From Spirochaetales bacterium (GTDB lineage Bacteria > Spirochaetota > Spirochaetia > UBA9216), in assembly GCA_016839055.1 (NCBI GenBank), contig JAEKNX010000004.1:1-64000 (forward strand): DNA of 64,000 bases, given 5' to 3'. Every line of letters starts with the position of its first letter. The stretch's first letter is position 1. The notes under the pieces are model-generated. The model saw only the letters and a program-made list of their open reading frames with translations. It was not told the DNA's origin and did not search any database. Positions 3,062 to 10,052 of this stretch are shown here, piece by piece. Made by a program: the position numbers and the translations under genes.

Positions 3062-5359
3062 TCAGAATAGATCCAGCTGGCGGCCGTCGATTATTGAGTC
3101 AAAATCCTCACCGCCTGCAAAGAGCACACCGTCGGCTATGGGTCTTATCTGCTTCTCGATATAATGCGCGTAATCCACGGTCCCGCCGTCCATTCCAACA
3201 GGTGTGGGGCCGGAGGCGGTCATTATATAGGATATTTCGTGGAGATTCATCTTCCATTCCGGGTCAATCTTCCTTGCCGCCTTGATATGAGGGGGGCTCG
3301 TTTTTATATACTTGTCTTTACCTTGTTTTATCCGTTTTCGGTATACAATTTGATCATCGTAGCGGCCGTCTTTCAGATCTTCTACAAATCCCCTGATCCA
3401 TTTTTTCATATCTTCCCCGCTGAAGAAGCGACGGAACAGTTCTTTTTGAAAGTTTTTCGCAAGTTCGGTCCAGTCGGAACGCACTGTTTCAAGTCCCTTG
3501 AACTCAATCTCTCCATTCTCAAGGAGGCCTGCATATCTTTTTCTCGCTCCCTCATTTGAATTGCGCATCGGCGGCAGGAAGAACTTGGGATAATGCTTTT
3601 CAAACTCGATCTCGAGCTGGGACTCTACACCCCAATCCTGTGATAGTATCCGGGTGAAATAGATGTTCACATCATCAGCCAGGCGTTCTCCGGCCTCAGA
3701 AGGCTTGTTCTTCTCCTCTTTAGTCAGGGAAACAAAGACAGAGTCGGTATCTCCGTAGATGACAGTATAGCCGCGATCCCGCAGATATTCGGTACAGGTT
3801 TTCAGTATCCATTGTCCTGTTCCGGTTATTGCCGTCGGGAGATCCGGGTGGTAGAAGCGGCAGCCTGTTGTTCCCATAACCCCGTAGAAGCTGTTTAAAA
3901 GGATCTTTACTGCCTGAGATAGATACTCATCTCCGTCGGTCTTTGCGCGAGCCCGTTTGCCCATGAGCTCTTTGAGAAAGACCGGAAGAATGTGTTCAGT
4001 CCGGGAGAATGCAATGCCTTCGGGCGTCTTTACAGTATGGGTGGCTGATTTCATCCTCGAGTAGGGATCGATGAAGAAGGTTCTCATAATAGTGGGGTAA
4101 AGGCTTTTGAAATCCAGGACAACAACGTGAGGATAGAGCCCGGGGGCTGAGGTAAATACATGGCCGCCGGCCGCATGGCCTCCAGGGATGACATCGGCGG
4201 TATCCGGAGCAACAATGCCCTTTCGGTGGAATTGCGGCAGCATGAAATGATCGAAGGCGGCGACAGACATATGTACCTTGTCAACCTGAAGACCTGTTAT
4301 CAGACTTCGGGTTACAAGCTGATCGATGATGGCGGTTTTCTGAAAAATCTCTGTTACAAGCACCGCATCCTCGAGATTGTAGTAGGCGAGTGCTTTCTTG
4401 TCCTCATTAAAGCGCCTTTCTATTTCGGCTACCTTATCCTCATCAGGAGTAATGTCCTTGCCGCGGCCGAGCAGTTCCTGCGCTACAGTTTCAAGTTTAT
4501 AGTTTTCAAATTTATAGAAGGCTGTCCTGAGGGTTTGGGGACCGTCGATTACCAGGCGACCTTCTATCTCGGCGGAAAATAATCCGCTGCGTTTTTCATT
4601 GATTCTTAATTTCCTGAATCCCCTTCCTGTTTTGAGGCTTATTCCATGAACCGCCGCGCGGGTTTCAAGAAACTTCAGGTCGAAGCCTATCACATGCCAG
4701 CCGATAATCAAGTCAGGATCATGTTCGCCTATGAAGCGAATGAAGCTGTTAAGTAGAACCTTCTCGTCGGAGCAGAAGGTTATCCAGTTCTCTCCGGGCG
4801 GCTCAGATTCACCCCGCATCAGGACATGCTTTACCTCTGTGCCGCCGGTAAGGTGAAAAGCGATAGAATATATGCTTCCGTCGTTTCCTGTCTCTATGTC
4901 AAAGGAGAGCCATTTAAGCTCAGGTCGGTAAACCGCCCCGGTTATTCCGGGGTTATGAAATATGTTGAGATTTCCGTTTTTATACGATGTTCCCTCAATT
5001 TCTATGCCGCCATTGATGTATCGCTCCATCAGGAAACGGTCTTCTGCTCTGATATCCGATTCATATAATCTGATACCGTTTTCCTTAAGCCGGCGACGGC
5101 AGTCAAAGAAACTATTAAGAGAGTTGAAATAGAGTGCATCAACTTTATTATCTGCAAAATCCACCATGGCAAGTTCTTTTCGTTCATATTCGGATGTGTT
5201 TTCGATTGGAAAATTTCTGTTCACGAAGAACAAAGGCCGGTGTGGTGAAAATATTAATTTAAACGGCCCGTTGGAACCCGTGCCGTAAAAATGAAGTTCA
5301 CATTTCCCTTTAATGTCCAGGCAGTGAGATGTCAGAATGAATCCAGTTTCCTTAGTCAT
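3062..5359 (-). CDS. polB: Family B DNA polymerase (Pol II type)
   Basis: 765 residues, close to the 783 of E. coli DNA polymerase II. The 3'-5' exonuclease motif FDIETG is at residues 153-158. The polymerase motif A, DFKSLYPTIM, lies near residue 413, and the palm motif YGDTDSVF near residue 535, so both active sites look intact. The protein ends in QLDLF, a good match to the QL(S/D)LF beta-clamp binding peptide. Pol II works in replication restart and translesion synthesis, and is SOS controlled in E. coli; I see no obvious LexA box here. No strong ribosome-binding site precedes the ATG at 5359. It stands alone between a convergent Bat operon and a divergent glycosidase region. Confidence 0.93.
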   Translation of the reverse strand: MTKETGFILTSHCLDIKGKCELHFYGTGSNGPFKLIFSPHRPLFFVNRNFPIENTSEYERKELAMVDFADNKVDALYFNSLNSFFDCRRRLKENGIRLYESDIRAEDRFLMERYINGGIEIEGTSYKNGNLNIFHNPGITGAVYRPELKWLSFDIETGNDGSIYSIAFHLTGGTEVKHVLMRGESEPPGENWITFCSDEKVLLNSFIRFIGEHDPDLIIGWHVIGFDLKFLETRAAVHGISLKTGRGFRKLRINEKRSGLFSAEIEGRLVIDGPQTLRTAFYKFENYKLETVAQELLGRGKDITPDEDKVAEIERRFNEDKKALAYYNLEDAVLVTEIFQKTAIIDQLVTRSLITGLQVDKVHMSVAAFDHFMLPQFHRKGIVAPDTADVIPGGHAAGGHVFTSAPGLYPHVVVLDFKSLYPTIMRTFFIDPYSRMKSATHTVKTPEGIAFSRTEHILPVFLKELMGKRARAKTDGDEYLSQAVKILLNSFYGVMGTTGCRFYHPDLPTAITGTGQWILKTCTEYLRDRGYTVIYGDTDSVFVSLTKEEKNKPSEAGERLADDVNIYFTRILSQDWGVESQLEIEFEKHYPKFFLPPMRNSNEGARKRYAGLLENGEIEFKGLETVRSDWTELAKNFQKELFRRFFSGEDMKKWIRGFVEDLKDGRYDDQIVYRKRIKQGKDKYIKTSPPHIKAARKIDPEWKMNLHEISYIMTASGPTPVGMDGGTVDYAHYIEKQIRPIADGVLFAGGEDFDSIIDGRQLDLF

Positions 5360-5541: not shown

Positions 5542-6051
5542 TGGGAAGTCTGCATGACTATGGGTGACAGCTGGGCATATAAGCCGGACGAGACGGCCTG
5601 GAAGAATCCGGTCGACCTGGTTGAAAATCTCATGAATGTGGTCAGCCGCGGCGGGAACTATCTTCTCAATGAAGGCCCGACTTCAGATGGAGTTTTTTCT
5701 CCTGAAGCGGTAGAGCGGATGCAGTATGTCGGCAGGTGGACGCGCAGAGATGACAAGGGTTTTTTGCATGTTTTTAAATGGCCCTCCGACGGCAATCTCA
5801 GCATATCAGCTAAAGTCCGGCAGCGGCGGGTTCTGAAACTGCCTGAGTGTACGGCGCTTCGGGCCCTGATCATAATGACCGTCAGTGCTGTCCTTTTTGG
5901 AAGACTTCTTCTGGACGGTCTAATCTACCTGATCAGCCCTGAAGGTTTAAGCAATTGGGCGTACATTGCAGTAAAAACGTTCTATACCGGAGCTGCCGGC
6001 TCCATAGCAGTCGTACTTGCCCTGTGGTCTGTCGTCAATGATAACCGATGA
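5542..6051 (+). pseudogene. GH29 alpha-L-fucosidase C-terminal remnant fused to a membrane segment
   Basis: From TGG at 5542 the frame reads WEVCMTMGDSWAYKP and then VSRGGNYLLNEGPTSDGVF, the conserved C-terminal third of the GH29 catalytic domain. The N-terminal ~300 residues, including the nucleophile, are absent. After LPECTA the sequence changes to two hydrophobic segments (about LRALIIMTVSAVLFGRLLL and FYTGAAGSIAVVLALWSV) that fusidase-type fucosidases do not have. The likely history is an internal deletion that joined a fucosidase tail to another gene's end. A separate 23-codon frame with a good GGAGG site begins at 5486 and stops across the ATG at 5554 (ATGA overlap), so the fragment could still be translated. 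The intact gene follows with another ATGA overlap at 6048. Confidence 0.75.
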
Positions 6052-7520
6052 TGGGAAAATATCAACCGACTCTGGAATCTATTACAAACCACAGTCTTCC
6101 CGACTGGTATGATGATGCCAAGCTTGGCATTTTTGTCCACTATGGTCTGTACTCCGTGCCCGGCTGGGCTGTTGTTTCCGAAGGTGACATCATTGCGTCA
6201 TTGAAGAAGTCCGGCTGGGCCGGGAGCCTGCCTGTGAACCCTTATGCCGAATGGTATCTCAATACCCTCCGGATTAAGGGCAGCCCCACCGCAGAATATC
6301 ATAGAAAGACCTATGGGGCAGAATTTACTTATGATGATTTTACCGAAGGCTTCAATAAAGAGAATGAGAAGTGGAATCCTGAGGCCTGGGCCGTGCTTTT
6401 TGAACGGATAGGAGCCCGCTATGTTGTCCTGACGAGTAAGCATTGCGAGAGTTTTAATCTCTGGCCTACGTCTTACCCAAACCCGTTTAAGAAAAATTAT
6501 ACCGCAAAACGTGATATAGTCGGAGAGCTTGCCTCTGCGGTGAGATCACATAAAATGCGGATGGGAATTTATTATAGTGGCGGTTATGACTGGTGCTTCA
6601 ATATTAAACCTATCACAACGGCCGCCGATCTGGGACTTAGCGTCCCGCAAAGTCTCGAATACGTGGATTACTGTACAAACCACTGGCATGAGCTGATTGA
6701 CCGCTACCAGCCGTCGGTTATGTGGGGCGATGTCGGATATCCTGTAAAGGCAGATATTCCCGAACTCTTTTCTCATTATTACAACAAGGTTCCCGACGGA
6801 GTTATAAACGATCGCTTCTACCAGGTGGATCTCGGTCGTATGGGAAAACTTATGCGGCTTCCCGGGCTTCGAACCTTCGTGGATCGGACTCTTACAAAGG
6901 CATTTATTGAAGGAAAGACGACTGCCCCGAGCCTGCACTCCGACTTCACAACGCCCGAGTATACCAGTAATCCGGGCCTGCTTGAAAAAAAATGGGAGAC
7001 ATGCCGCGGCCTCGGCTATTCATTTGGATATAACCGAAACGAAACATCAGAGCATATGCTGTCAGTCAAAGATCTGGTTCAGATGTTTGTCGATATTGTC
7101 AGCAGGAATGGTAACCTCCTGCTTAACGTAGCTCCTATGGCCGACGGTACAATTCCGACCCTTCAGCTTCAGCGGCTGGAAGGTCTGGGGGAATGGCTCG
7201 CGGTAAACGGTGAGGCTATCTTCGGTACCCGTCCGTGGCATACCGCTGAAGGACAGACGCGTGAGGGAATTGATGTCCGCTTTACCCAAAAAGCTGACAC
7301 ACTTTACGCCGTTCTTCTGGGCACTCCTTCCGGTGTATCTGTCACACTCAAAGACATGTGGGCTGACCCTGAGATGGAGGTGAAACTTCCGGGGACCGAC
7401 ATTCTCCTTGGCTGGAGGCAGGAACGAGACGGCATAACAATCTTATTTCCATCATCACCACCGTATAGCCCGGCACTGGCACTTAAGTTAACACCAAAAC
7501 CCTCGAAGGTTGAATCCTGA
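6048..7520 (+). CDS. Alpha-L-fucosidase, glycoside hydrolase family 29
   Basis: 490 residues, full length for the family and without a signal peptide, so probably cytoplasmic. It hydrolyses terminal alpha-L-fucose by a retaining mechanism. The N-terminal LGIFVHYGLYSVPGWA and the SKHCESFNLWPTS strand are classic GH29 barrel motifs. The nucleophile is expected to be Asp228 in VMWGDVGYP. The region LLEKKWETCRGLGYSFGYNR is a full version of the segment preserved in the upstream remnant. A C-terminal beta domain starts near residue 400. The start overlaps the stop of the remnant (ATGA), suggesting they are co-transcribed. The gene ends directly against the convergent lipoprotein gene. Confidence 0.92.
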   Translation: MMGKYQPTLESITNHSLPDWYDDAKLGIFVHYGLYSVPGWAVVSEGDIIASLKKSGWAGSLPVNPYAEWYLNTLRIKGSPTAEYHRKTYGAEFTYDDFTEGFNKENEKWNPEAWAVLFERIGARYVVLTSKHCESFNLWPTSYPNPFKKNYTAKRDIVGELASAVRSHKMRMGIYYSGGYDWCFNIKPITTAADLGLSVPQSLEYVDYCTNHWHELIDRYQPSVMWGDVGYPVKADIPELFSHYYNKVPDGVINDRFYQVDLGRMGKLMRLPGLRTFVDRTLTKAFIEGKTTAPSLHSDFTTPEYTSNPGLLEKKWETCRGLGYSFGYNRNETSEHMLSVKDLVQMFVDIVSRNGNLLLNVAPMADGTIPTLQLQRLEGLGEWLAVNGEAIFGTRPWHTAEGQTREGIDVRFTQKADTLYAVLLGTPSGVSVTLKDMWADPEMEVKLPGTDILLGWRQERDGITILFPSSPPYSPALALKLTPKPSKVES

Positions 7521-10052
7521 TTAGAATGTAGTGAAACTCCAGACAGGGCTCTCGGTTGTAATGCCTATGCTGAACTCATACGCAACCTTCCAGTAATAAG
7601 TAGTACCCGCAGTCAGTCCTGTCAGCTGGTAACTGGTTTCTCCAGTGTTCACTGTCGGAGGGTTGTCCGGCGGGGCACACGCTGCAAGAATCAGACCTGT
7701 GACTGATAGGAGAACAACCAGAATTTTTATCAGACCATGTTTTCCCTTTGCACGTTTCCGGAGAAAAACTCCGGCTGTCAAAAAGCTGCTCAGAATGCCG
7801 ATTCCCGCCAAACGTATTCGAGCTGCTCCGGTACCGGCGATTTCAACCGGAGTTACTCCTGTAAAGGCTTCGTCGGTTCCTATATATAGCTTTGCTGCGG
7901 CTGTCTGTAATGTCGGGATACTGGGTTCCTCCCAGATAAACGTTAGATCATAACTTAGGCCGGTCGCGCCGTTACTGGGGTAGACTGGAACCGGTGCCGA
8001 CCATACACAACCGGAAGATCCGCCGGAAACGAACGATATTGTTGTCGGGTCCCATGAGTTGTCCATATAGCTTGCTATGTAATTCTGGCAGTAGGGGTTG
8101 ATTGCCAGAGAAGGAAGAGCCTGAATTCCTGCTGAGACATCGATAGTAAAATCCGCTTCCGGCATAGTCCCGGCGGCTGTAACTCTTCTACCGTAGATGT
8201 CATAATCGGTGCCTCGGTTATCCCGCCAGATTACCAGATAGTTATTGTTATAGGCGTCATATACTATATCCGGTTCTGTCATTTCAGCGTCGGCCAGATC
8301 TCCAATAACTATTTCTGCACCGGAAGCTGTTCCGTCTGCCCCTACTATACGTCCCAGGATATCAGGATTATCATCCCAGTCATATTCCCGCCAGACAACC
8401 AGATAATTTCCGGCTGCTCTATTGTAAGCAGCCGCAGGGTAGCTTTTTGTCCAATTGGTTCCGATGCTGAAGATTTTTGTTGCTGACGGAGTACCTGCCG
8501 CAGATACAAGATTCCCACAGATGAATGCATCGCTCTCGTTTTTTGTATACCAGGTCACCAGGTATTCAGCTTCCGTGGGATTGAAAACAACATTGGGGTC
8601 CCATTGATCCTTTTCGGCTGAATCAATGGCGAATCTCGAACCACTGCGGCTTCCTCCGGAGGTTATGAGCTGTCCGTATATAAAACAAGAATAATCACTG
8701 ATGTCATAATTCATAAATACGCTCAGATATCTGTTATTTATAGAATCCCAGGAGAGATCCGGTGTCAGCTGATTATTTACATCATTGTCGATTATAAAAT
8801 TTGAAAGAATACTGATAACCCCGTCAGCTGGAACTATTTGTCCGTAGATATCGACTTCTGAACTTCCCGAGGTTCGCCTGTCTTCCCACACAACCAGATA
8901 GTTATTATCTGTTGCATTATAAGCGGCTTGTGGATGTGTGCAAGAACTACCGGCTGCATTGTCTATTAGGAATTCGGAACCGCTTTCTGTCCCGTCTGTG
9001 TTCAGCAATTGTCCATATATATTCCAATCTCCTCCTGACTCACGCTGATAGACAGCGAGGAAATTATTGGCTGCTGTATTAAATGCAATATCTGATTGAT
9101 AAAAGACTGTTGATACAGTGCCGTAAAGCGAAAATGCTATGTCAACAGAGTCTCCGGAACTTATTCCGGCTTCTGCAAAAGGGATTTTAAAGTTGTAGGT
9201 TTTGTGCTGATATTCGACTTTGTCTGTATAAATAAATTCAGTATTTCCCCAACTTGATTTTTCAGTAGTGATCCTGAAACTTTTCAGTCCTTTTTTTGTT
9301 TTCAGATAAACTTTAGCGTAATCCAGTCCGCCGTCCATGGTATTATCAGGAGTCAGATCTATATCAATTTTAAGGTTTTCATAGTCGTCTGTAATGTTTA
9401 GGTAGACATACCCGTCCGGATGCCCTGAACCTGAGAGGCAGTATTCTTTTATCCCGAGGGATTTATCAGCTGCGGCTGTGTAGTGATAGAAATCCCTGAA
9501 CTGCCATGGTTCTTTCATTAAATTTGTCTCAGGAAGATTAATAGGAGATGTGTCAAATACTTCATTTTCTATTCTTGCTCTTACTGTGAGAACGGCAGGC
9601 ATGCCCCGGGCCTTAAAAATACATTCAATGGTTTTTTTTGAAACATCGAGAACGTCGTTGTCGGACTTCAGCAGTTTCAGCAGACTGTTATCAACACCGC
9701 TGACCGAAAGGGGAGGATTTTCATTCAACCTGACTGAATCGAGATGCGCTGCGCCGCCTCCGTTTTGGGTAATTCTGATTCGGACAATATCGCTGGTAAG
9801 CTTTGCCGGAACATTTAAGTTTAATTCACGGTAAAACTTATCGCAGAAAATGGTCCCGGATTCATTCCATCCTGATGGTGTATAAATGCTGATTGTAAAG
9901 TCTCCATTCGGAATCATGTTTTCAATTGAATTGAAAGAAAGGCTCGATTTAGACATTACAACAGTTTCTTGAGCATCGGTCTTAATTGCTGCATTTTCAG
10001 TGCAGGCAATGATTAGCAGTGGAAGGAAAACCAGCAGAAAAAGTTTTTTCAT
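7521..10052 (-). CDS. Large lipoprotein with a probable six-bladed propeller and an interrupted FN3-like domain
   Basis: 843 residues with a lipoprotein signal (lipobox LIIAC near residue 17) and AGGAG before the ATG. Residues about 50-310 are beta-rich with carbohydrate-binding character. About 315-670 hold roughly six copies of a ~57-residue repeat with the core NYLVVWxDxRxxxxDIYGQ, which suggests a beta-propeller. A fibronectin-III-like domain begins at about 682 (PSNGATGLSYDLTFIW) and finishes as AGTTYYWKV at the C-terminus. Between these halves, at about 743-805, lies a foreign-looking insert: a hydrophobic helix, RKRAKGKH, a second hydrophobic helix and a new lipobox-like LAAC. Function is unknown; surface sensing or adhesion is a guess. 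An extended -10 (TGATATACT) lies in the upstream gap. Confidence 0.75.
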   Translation of the reverse strand: MKKLFLLVFLPLLIIACTENAAIKTDAQETVVMSKSSLSFNSIENMIPNGDFTISIYTPSGWNESGTIFCDKFYRELNLNVPAKLTSDIVRIRITQNGGGAAHLDSVRLNENPPLSVSGVDNSLLKLLKSDNDVLDVSKKTIECIFKARGMPAVLTVRARIENEVFDTSPINLPETNLMKEPWQFRDFYHYTAAADKSLGIKEYCLSGSGHPDGYVYLNITDDYENLKIDIDLTPDNTMDGGLDYAKVYLKTKKGLKSFRITTEKSSWGNTEFIYTDKVEYQHKTYNFKIPFAEAGISSGDSVDIAFSLYGTVSTVFYQSDIAFNTAANNFLAVYQRESGGDWNIYGQLLNTDGTESGSEFLIDNAAGSSCTHPQAAYNATDNNYLVVWEDRRTSGSSEVDIYGQIVPADGVISILSNFIIDNDVNNQLTPDLSWDSINNRYLSVFMNYDISDYSCFIYGQLITSGGSRSGSRFAIDSAEKDQWDPNVVFNPTEAEYLVTWYTKNESDAFICGNLVSAAGTPSATKIFSIGTNWTKSYPAAAYNRAAGNYLVVWREYDWDDNPDILGRIVGADGTASGAEIVIGDLADAEMTEPDIVYDAYNNNYLVIWRDNRGTDYDIYGRRVTAAGTMPEADFTIDVSAGIQALPSLAINPYCQNYIASYMDNSWDPTTISFVSGGSSGCVWSAPVPVYPSNGATGLSYDLTFIWEEPSIPTLQTAAAKLYIGTDEAFTGVTPVEIAGTGAARIRLAGIGILSSFLTAGVFLRKRAKGKHGLIKILVVLLSVTGLILAACAPPDNPPTVNTGETSYQLTGLTAGTTYYWKVAYEFSIGITTESPVWSFTTF

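Follow-up and report, generated by a model that had tools for sequence, protein, structure and literature searches.

To our knowledge, known lipoproteins are anchored at the N-terminus, and the bacterial lipoprotein signal that is processed by Lgt and LspA comprises a basic start, a hydrophobic helix, and a lipobox Cys preceded by a small residue. Two other systems combine elements of such a signal with a C-terminal location. In MYXO-CTERM proteins, the substrates of myxosortase, C-terminal anchoring is suggested to involve an invariant Cys that is lipidated (PMC11980579). The NCBIfam family NF058595 (invert_tail) is described as a "lipo-invert putative C-terminal anchoring domain"; a search of the literature for "lipo-invert" and "invert_tail", with most subscription papers lying outside its coverage, returned nothing. 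There are also two precedents for an FN3 domain that is made of two chains. One is the insulin receptor, which contains an FN3 domain with a cleaved insert, and complementation of FN3 fragments was reportedly described by Dutta in 2005. The other is HCF-1, the fragments of which stay associated after proteolysis through an interdigitated Fn3 unit (SAS1/Fn3nc; PMC6582346).

The window analysed here, a stretch of 64,000 nucleotides, is the start of contig C10 of a Spirochaetales assembly of 5.0 Mb in 43 contigs. The reading frame at 7521–10052 (−) is open over 843 aa and contains the following features:

7521..10052, minus strand: gene for a surface protein of 843 aa that carries the module (open reading frame; full-length homologue L005)
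10002..10052, minus strand: N-terminal signal with lipobox-like IIAC, residues 1–17 (sequence)
7827..8000, minus strand: FN3 domain, first part, strands A to C′, residues 685–742 (profile match to solved FN3 domains; model strands)
7638..7826, minus strand: inserted 63-residue stretch AARIRL...NTGE, residues 743–805 (coordinates; conserved in 27 modules)
7761..7814, minus strand: hydrophobic helix 1, residues 747–764, with Ala-Gly near its start (hydropathy; conservation)
7734..7760, minus strand: basic loop RKRAKGKHG, residues 765–773, predicted to be cytoplasmic (net charge across modules)
7677..7733, minus strand: hydrophobic helix 2 and lipobox LAAC with Cys792, residues 774–792, an internal lipoprotein-type signal (conservation of Cys and of the small residue before it)
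7638..7676, minus strand: linker after the lipobox Cys, residues 793–805 (Gly/Ser-rich in most relatives)
7524..7637, minus strand: FN3 domain, second part, strands E-F-G, residues 806–843, at the extreme C-terminus (Pfam, profile, and model)

As the original prediction had described, the 63-residue stretch at 7638–7826 lies inside an FN3-like domain and consists of two hydrophobic helices, both called by hydropathy, with a basic loop between them and a lipobox Cys at the end of the second. In particular, the first FN3 part ends with AGTG (residue 742), helix 2 ends with LILAAC (final residue Cys792), and FN3 resumes after the linker at TSYQL (from residue 806). The two likenesses drawn at that time also stand: the first half resembles a C-terminal sorting tail, having a helix rich in small residues and Gly and a basic end, and the second half resembles a lipoprotein signal, having a basic n-region (RKRAKGKHG), hydrophobic helix 2, and a lipobox (LAAC) that conforms to the pattern [LVI][ASTVI][GAS]C. 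The location differs from that of an ordinary lipoprotein signal, which is N-terminal, whereas the module's signal is internal, follows a first membrane helix, and ends about 50–65 residues from the C-terminus (Cys792 of 843 in the window protein). The window protein also has a lipobox-like signal of its own at the start, MKKLFLLVFLPLLIIAC (10002–10052), which was absent from the earlier account. The module is like MYXO-CTERM in the C-terminal anchoring proposed for it and in its invariant Cys, and differs in order: in MYXO-CTERM, the Cys precedes a single helix and a basic tail ends the protein, whereas in the module the Cys follows helix 2 and half an FN3 domain comes after (PMC11980579).

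Elsewhere in the window, a frame at 5554–6051 (+) encodes a C-terminal fragment of alpha-L-fucosidase (PF01120 positions 278–342) that runs into a hydrophobic tail. It lies directly upstream of a full alpha-L-fucosidase gene at 6048–7520, and looks like the remnant of a duplicated or truncated gene. The bacterial contig also contains a gene for a family B DNA polymerase at 3062–5359 (−) (PF00136 and PF03104).

The sequences on the two sides of the hairpin match one FN3 domain. Pfam PF00041, run on the whole window protein, reached 20.2 bits against a gathering threshold of 25, and matched the second half alone; a sub-threshold match to one half is what would be expected for an interrupted domain. 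In a comparison with the sequences of the PDB, a profile of aligned module proteins (A3, see below) matched one FN3 domain of neogenin in two successive pieces, with profile positions 23–51 and 128–167 corresponding to chain residues 123–151 and 164–203. According to this alignment, the 76 profile positions between the two pieces replace about 12 residues of the C′–E region. Structure prediction for the C-terminal segment, which had been suggested as a check, is compatible with this. A first AlphaFold model, for which two sequences were used, was of low quality, with a mean pLDDT of 54.7. A second model, computed from an alignment that included eight plain FN3 rows from viral contigs, has FN3 strands flanking a hairpin that is itself poorly modelled; most FN3 strands have a pLDDT of about 90 or higher, and the hairpin is at <60. 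The best Foldseek match of the second model is an FN3 domain (E 2.3e-4), and VIA-align 2 superimposes model residues 7–166 on single FN3 domains with a Z of 10.9 and an rmsd of 2.0 over 89 residues. Because FN3 rows were built into the alignment, the second model supports compatibility with FN3 and is not an independent proof. Taken from profile matches and modelling, both flanks are predicted to form one FN3 fold, interrupted between strands C′ and E.

The same hairpin occurs at the same FN3 position in a homologue. Among 60 relatives, it was found in one genome, G033, which belongs to the same class as the window genome and to another spirochaete family: protein L005 is 31% identical over query residues 87–842 (about 756 residues). 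At its C-terminus, SLAGTG is followed by two hydrophobic helices separated by a basic stretch, the second helix ending with MISSC, and then by a linker and EYSVTGLTPATTYYWK. The search for homologues with and without the insert, as the original prediction had proposed it, had a divided outcome: L005 contains the same insert, whereas proteins related to the N-terminal part and propeller of the window protein (L010, L011, and L013) have other C-termini. Specifically, L010, from a Bacillota MAG, has leucine-rich repeats; L011, from a Nitrospiria bacterium (genome G426), has a CFI-box-CTERM with a membrane helix (NF041770, E 1.6e-31); and L013 has neither. The protein body thus seems to swap anchors.

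When 148 genomes of the phylum to which G426 belongs were searched with a profile of two rows (A1), its FN3-plus-hairpin columns matched many other Nitrospirota proteins. We aligned 21 of these, leaving out L135, whose extracted segment was truncated, and with the resulting profile A3 found 25 full-length copies in 9 of the 148 Nitrospirota genomes (one each in G439, G461, and G504; two each in G470 and G573; four each in G520, G547, and G567; and six in G566) and module fragments in three more. With the window protein and the G033 homologue, and after one duplicate row from the same gene had been dropped, this makes 27 distinct modules in 11 genomes of two phyla. The full module is present in 2 of 392 Spirochaetota genomes by profile A2 and in 1 of 198 by A3 (G033 lies outside those 198). 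The other A2 and A3 matches in Spirochaetota, outside G000 and G033, cover one FN3 half only, and those opened (L044–L046) are plain FN3 proteins without the hairpin. In the phylum of the Bacillota MAG, none of 129 genomes had the module at E 1e-10.

All Nitrospirota copies end within a few residues of the protein C-terminus, and the bodies to which the modules are attached fall into nine BLAST clusters, one of them large and joined by shared repeats; Pfam matches on eight bodies include GDSL lipase, laminin-G-like, FG-GAP, PKD, SBBP, chondroitinase-B-like, and ASH-type repeats. An N-terminal hydrophobic stretch is present in 21 of the 27 frames. By eye, these stretches mostly look like ordinary signal peptides, and are lipobox-like in the window protein and in L194 (1001 onwards, +), where the signal reads LMACGS; like the window protein, L194 may therefore be lipidated at both ends. 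Comparison of short flanks revealed no dedicated protease or processing gene beside the modules. The only neighbour gene common to several modules lies downstream of three SBBP-type relatives (L127:3838(+), L131:2625(+), and L133:4303(−)), where the products are about 58–63% identical.

Versions in which the module appears split between genes were encountered in G492 (L188), G477 (L189), G566:C5 (L191), and G501 (L190), and are short remnants, frameshifted, or chimeric. In L190, the module tail is fused in frame to an unrelated frame resembling an acyl-CoA ligase or AMP-binding enzyme, perhaps through a contig chimera. Halves encoded by separate genes, if genuine, would be a natural proof of a two-chain domain; since these pieces look decayed or chimeric, we do not count them as support.

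Across the 27 modules, which have a mean pairwise identity of 34%, the lipobox Cys is invariant and lies 50–65 residues from the C-terminus. The residue before it is small in every case (Ser in 22, Gly in 3, Ala in 2), and both positions are kept in all six of the modules that were outside the A3 build. The strict lipobox [LVI][ASTVI][GAS]C is present in 18 of 27. The loop between the helices carries a net charge between +2 and +6 in each of the 28 rows, which represent 27 distinct modules, Ala and Gly near the start of helix 1 are present in 24 of 27 modules each, and the FN3 core residues L, Y, W, F, and T are present in 27 of 27. The residue after the Cys is Gly in 22 modules, Ser in 3, Ala in 1, Phe in 1, and Asp in none. 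In E. coli, an Asp after the lipidated Cys (position +2) causes retention in the inner membrane; by this rule, no module carries the retention signal.

NF058595 matches the same stretch. On the window segment, its match (E 0.023, 15.0 bits) covers the hairpin and lipobox, with segment residues 62–128 aligned to profile positions 24–94; on L005, it gives E 2.7e-4 and 19.7–21.3 bits; and among 20 Nitrospirota copies scanned, 18 match at E up to 0.01 (20.5–32.9 bits), and two have no match at E 0.01. None of the scanned copies reaches the curated cut-off of 37 bits, the best being 32.9, and the full window protein gives no match at E 0.1. No match over the cut-off was found in 392 Spirochaetota genomes, and the matches listed do not include the window locus. 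Ordinary N-terminal lipoprotein signals also score 20–32 on this profile, and many of the sub-cut-off Spirochaetota matches whose DNA was inspected are such signals. We therefore rejected the NF058595 match as a proof by itself. The match is at the C-terminal end and over the hairpin, and the family name fits an anchoring function; since the same stretch is matched, the curators have recognised this or a close kind of tail. The present 27 modules are a divergent group relative to NF058595, and the split-FN3 structure is a description of these modules.

On this evidence, we consider it likely, with a probability of roughly 0.58, that the stretch forms the core of a portable module for C-terminal anchoring, one that is lipidated, cut by LspA, and clasped by its FN3 domain. 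The positive-inside rule and the Lgt/LspA pathway are the basis for reading the hairpin as two successive elements, a stop-transfer helix and then a prolipoprotein signal. In this reading, the body would be exported by Sec until helix 1 stopped transfer; the basic loop would stay cytoplasmic, the hairpin being inserted with its loop inside; and helix 2, like the signal of a prolipoprotein, would expose the lipobox on the outer face. There, Lgt would lipidate Cys792, and LspA would cut before it. Two chains would result: the body with FN3 strands A–C′, and a lipidated tail of ~52 residues with strands E-F-G. One FN3 fold takes both halves, so the two chains would stay together non-covalently; judging from the FN3 fold, a cut by LspA would leave strands of both chains in both sheets. 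The body would thereby be held to a lipid near its own C-terminus. LspA (PF01252) is encoded in all 11 module genomes checked, in two copies in G000; as LspA is near-universal, its presence is a necessary condition only. In the window protein and L194, the need for a second lipid is less obvious, because an N-terminal lipobox-like signal is present already. HCF-1 is a precedent for an FN3 unit split over two chains, as proposed for the module (PMC6582346), and its chain 4go6_B matches the module profile weakly (E 0.037). It differs in being a eukaryotic nuclear protein that is cut by OGT with no membrane or lipid involved.

The stretch could instead be an uncut two-helix anchor, in which the hairpin would remain in the inner membrane, with or without a lipid on Cys792, and the FN3 domain would close over it as one chain. 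The conserved anatomy is the same for such an anchor, and the model has one uninterrupted chain that folds as FN3 about the hairpin; yet an uncut anchor gives no reason for the Cys to be invariant, with a small residue always before it and Gly mostly after it, and LspA and Lgt are expected to act on such a site, so that we regard it as possible but rather unlikely. We think it a good deal less probable that helix 1 is a protease-processed sorting signal of the CTERM type and the main anchor, the lipoprotein part merely releasing or protecting the C-terminal piece. The nearly invariant Ala-Gly near helix 1 would suit this arrangement, and a small-residue motif, a helix, and a basic end do resemble CTERM tails in general, including the MYXO-CTERM architecture (PMC11980579). 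Against it, among the CTERM families of NCBIfam only NF058595 matched the window and L005 segments at E up to 10, in a search where the HMMER filters remove weak matches, and the short flanks of the modules contain no dedicated protease gene.

The original interpretation was that the end of one gene and the beginning of another had been joined in frame, or that the stretch is a mobile insert at the protein level, and the halves do resemble a sorting tail and the signal of a new lipoprotein. Comparison across genomes makes this very improbable. The hairpin recurs at this position in a homologue of 31% identity, and 25 more full copies are attached to unrelated secreted proteins, so the arrangement is more than chance. 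Nor does the segment look foreign or private: its GC is within the range of its gene, no flanking repeat of ≥7 bases was found, and searches of the own genome with the full protein, the module profile, and a tblastn-type query of the last 101 residues found no second copy, in other lipoproteins or elsewhere. (Weak matches at C7 and C20 are an RND-type permease and an unrelated lipoprotein, and not paralogous copies.) Two tblastn searches of plasmids gave no match. Occurrence as a standard domain in many unrelated genomes, named beforehand as evidence against a fusion or insert, is largely what was found (11 genomes, two phyla, nine body clusters). An ancient fusion or insertion may have created the module originally; that is not what is seen here. 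An assembly error or frameshift artefact is hardly credible: the contigs are of MAG type and some relatives are visibly broken or chimeric, but the frame is open throughout and 27 independent copies share the design. The arrangement is real and conserved, and is not a fusion.

Beyond the single LspA cut of the lipidated, FN3-clasped module, a second cut at or close to the conserved Ala-Gly may take away helix 1 as well. The hairpin would then be excised on both sides, by LspA at the lipobox and by a second, putative protease near the Ala-Gly before helix 1, and the two-chain FN3 clasp alone would join the body to the lipidated tail. We consider this double cut unlikely. If it were true, the product would be a lipoprotein with its anchor near the C-terminal end, able to leave the inner membrane.

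It is the proposed two-chain mechanism that makes the module interesting. An LspA-type site inside a beta-sandwich domain, if it is one, would mean that a secreted protein is held by a lipid near its C-terminus. If true, this would provide a bacterial example of a domain that is made to be cut and clasped, and a putative NCBIfam family would become directly testable by simple experiments.
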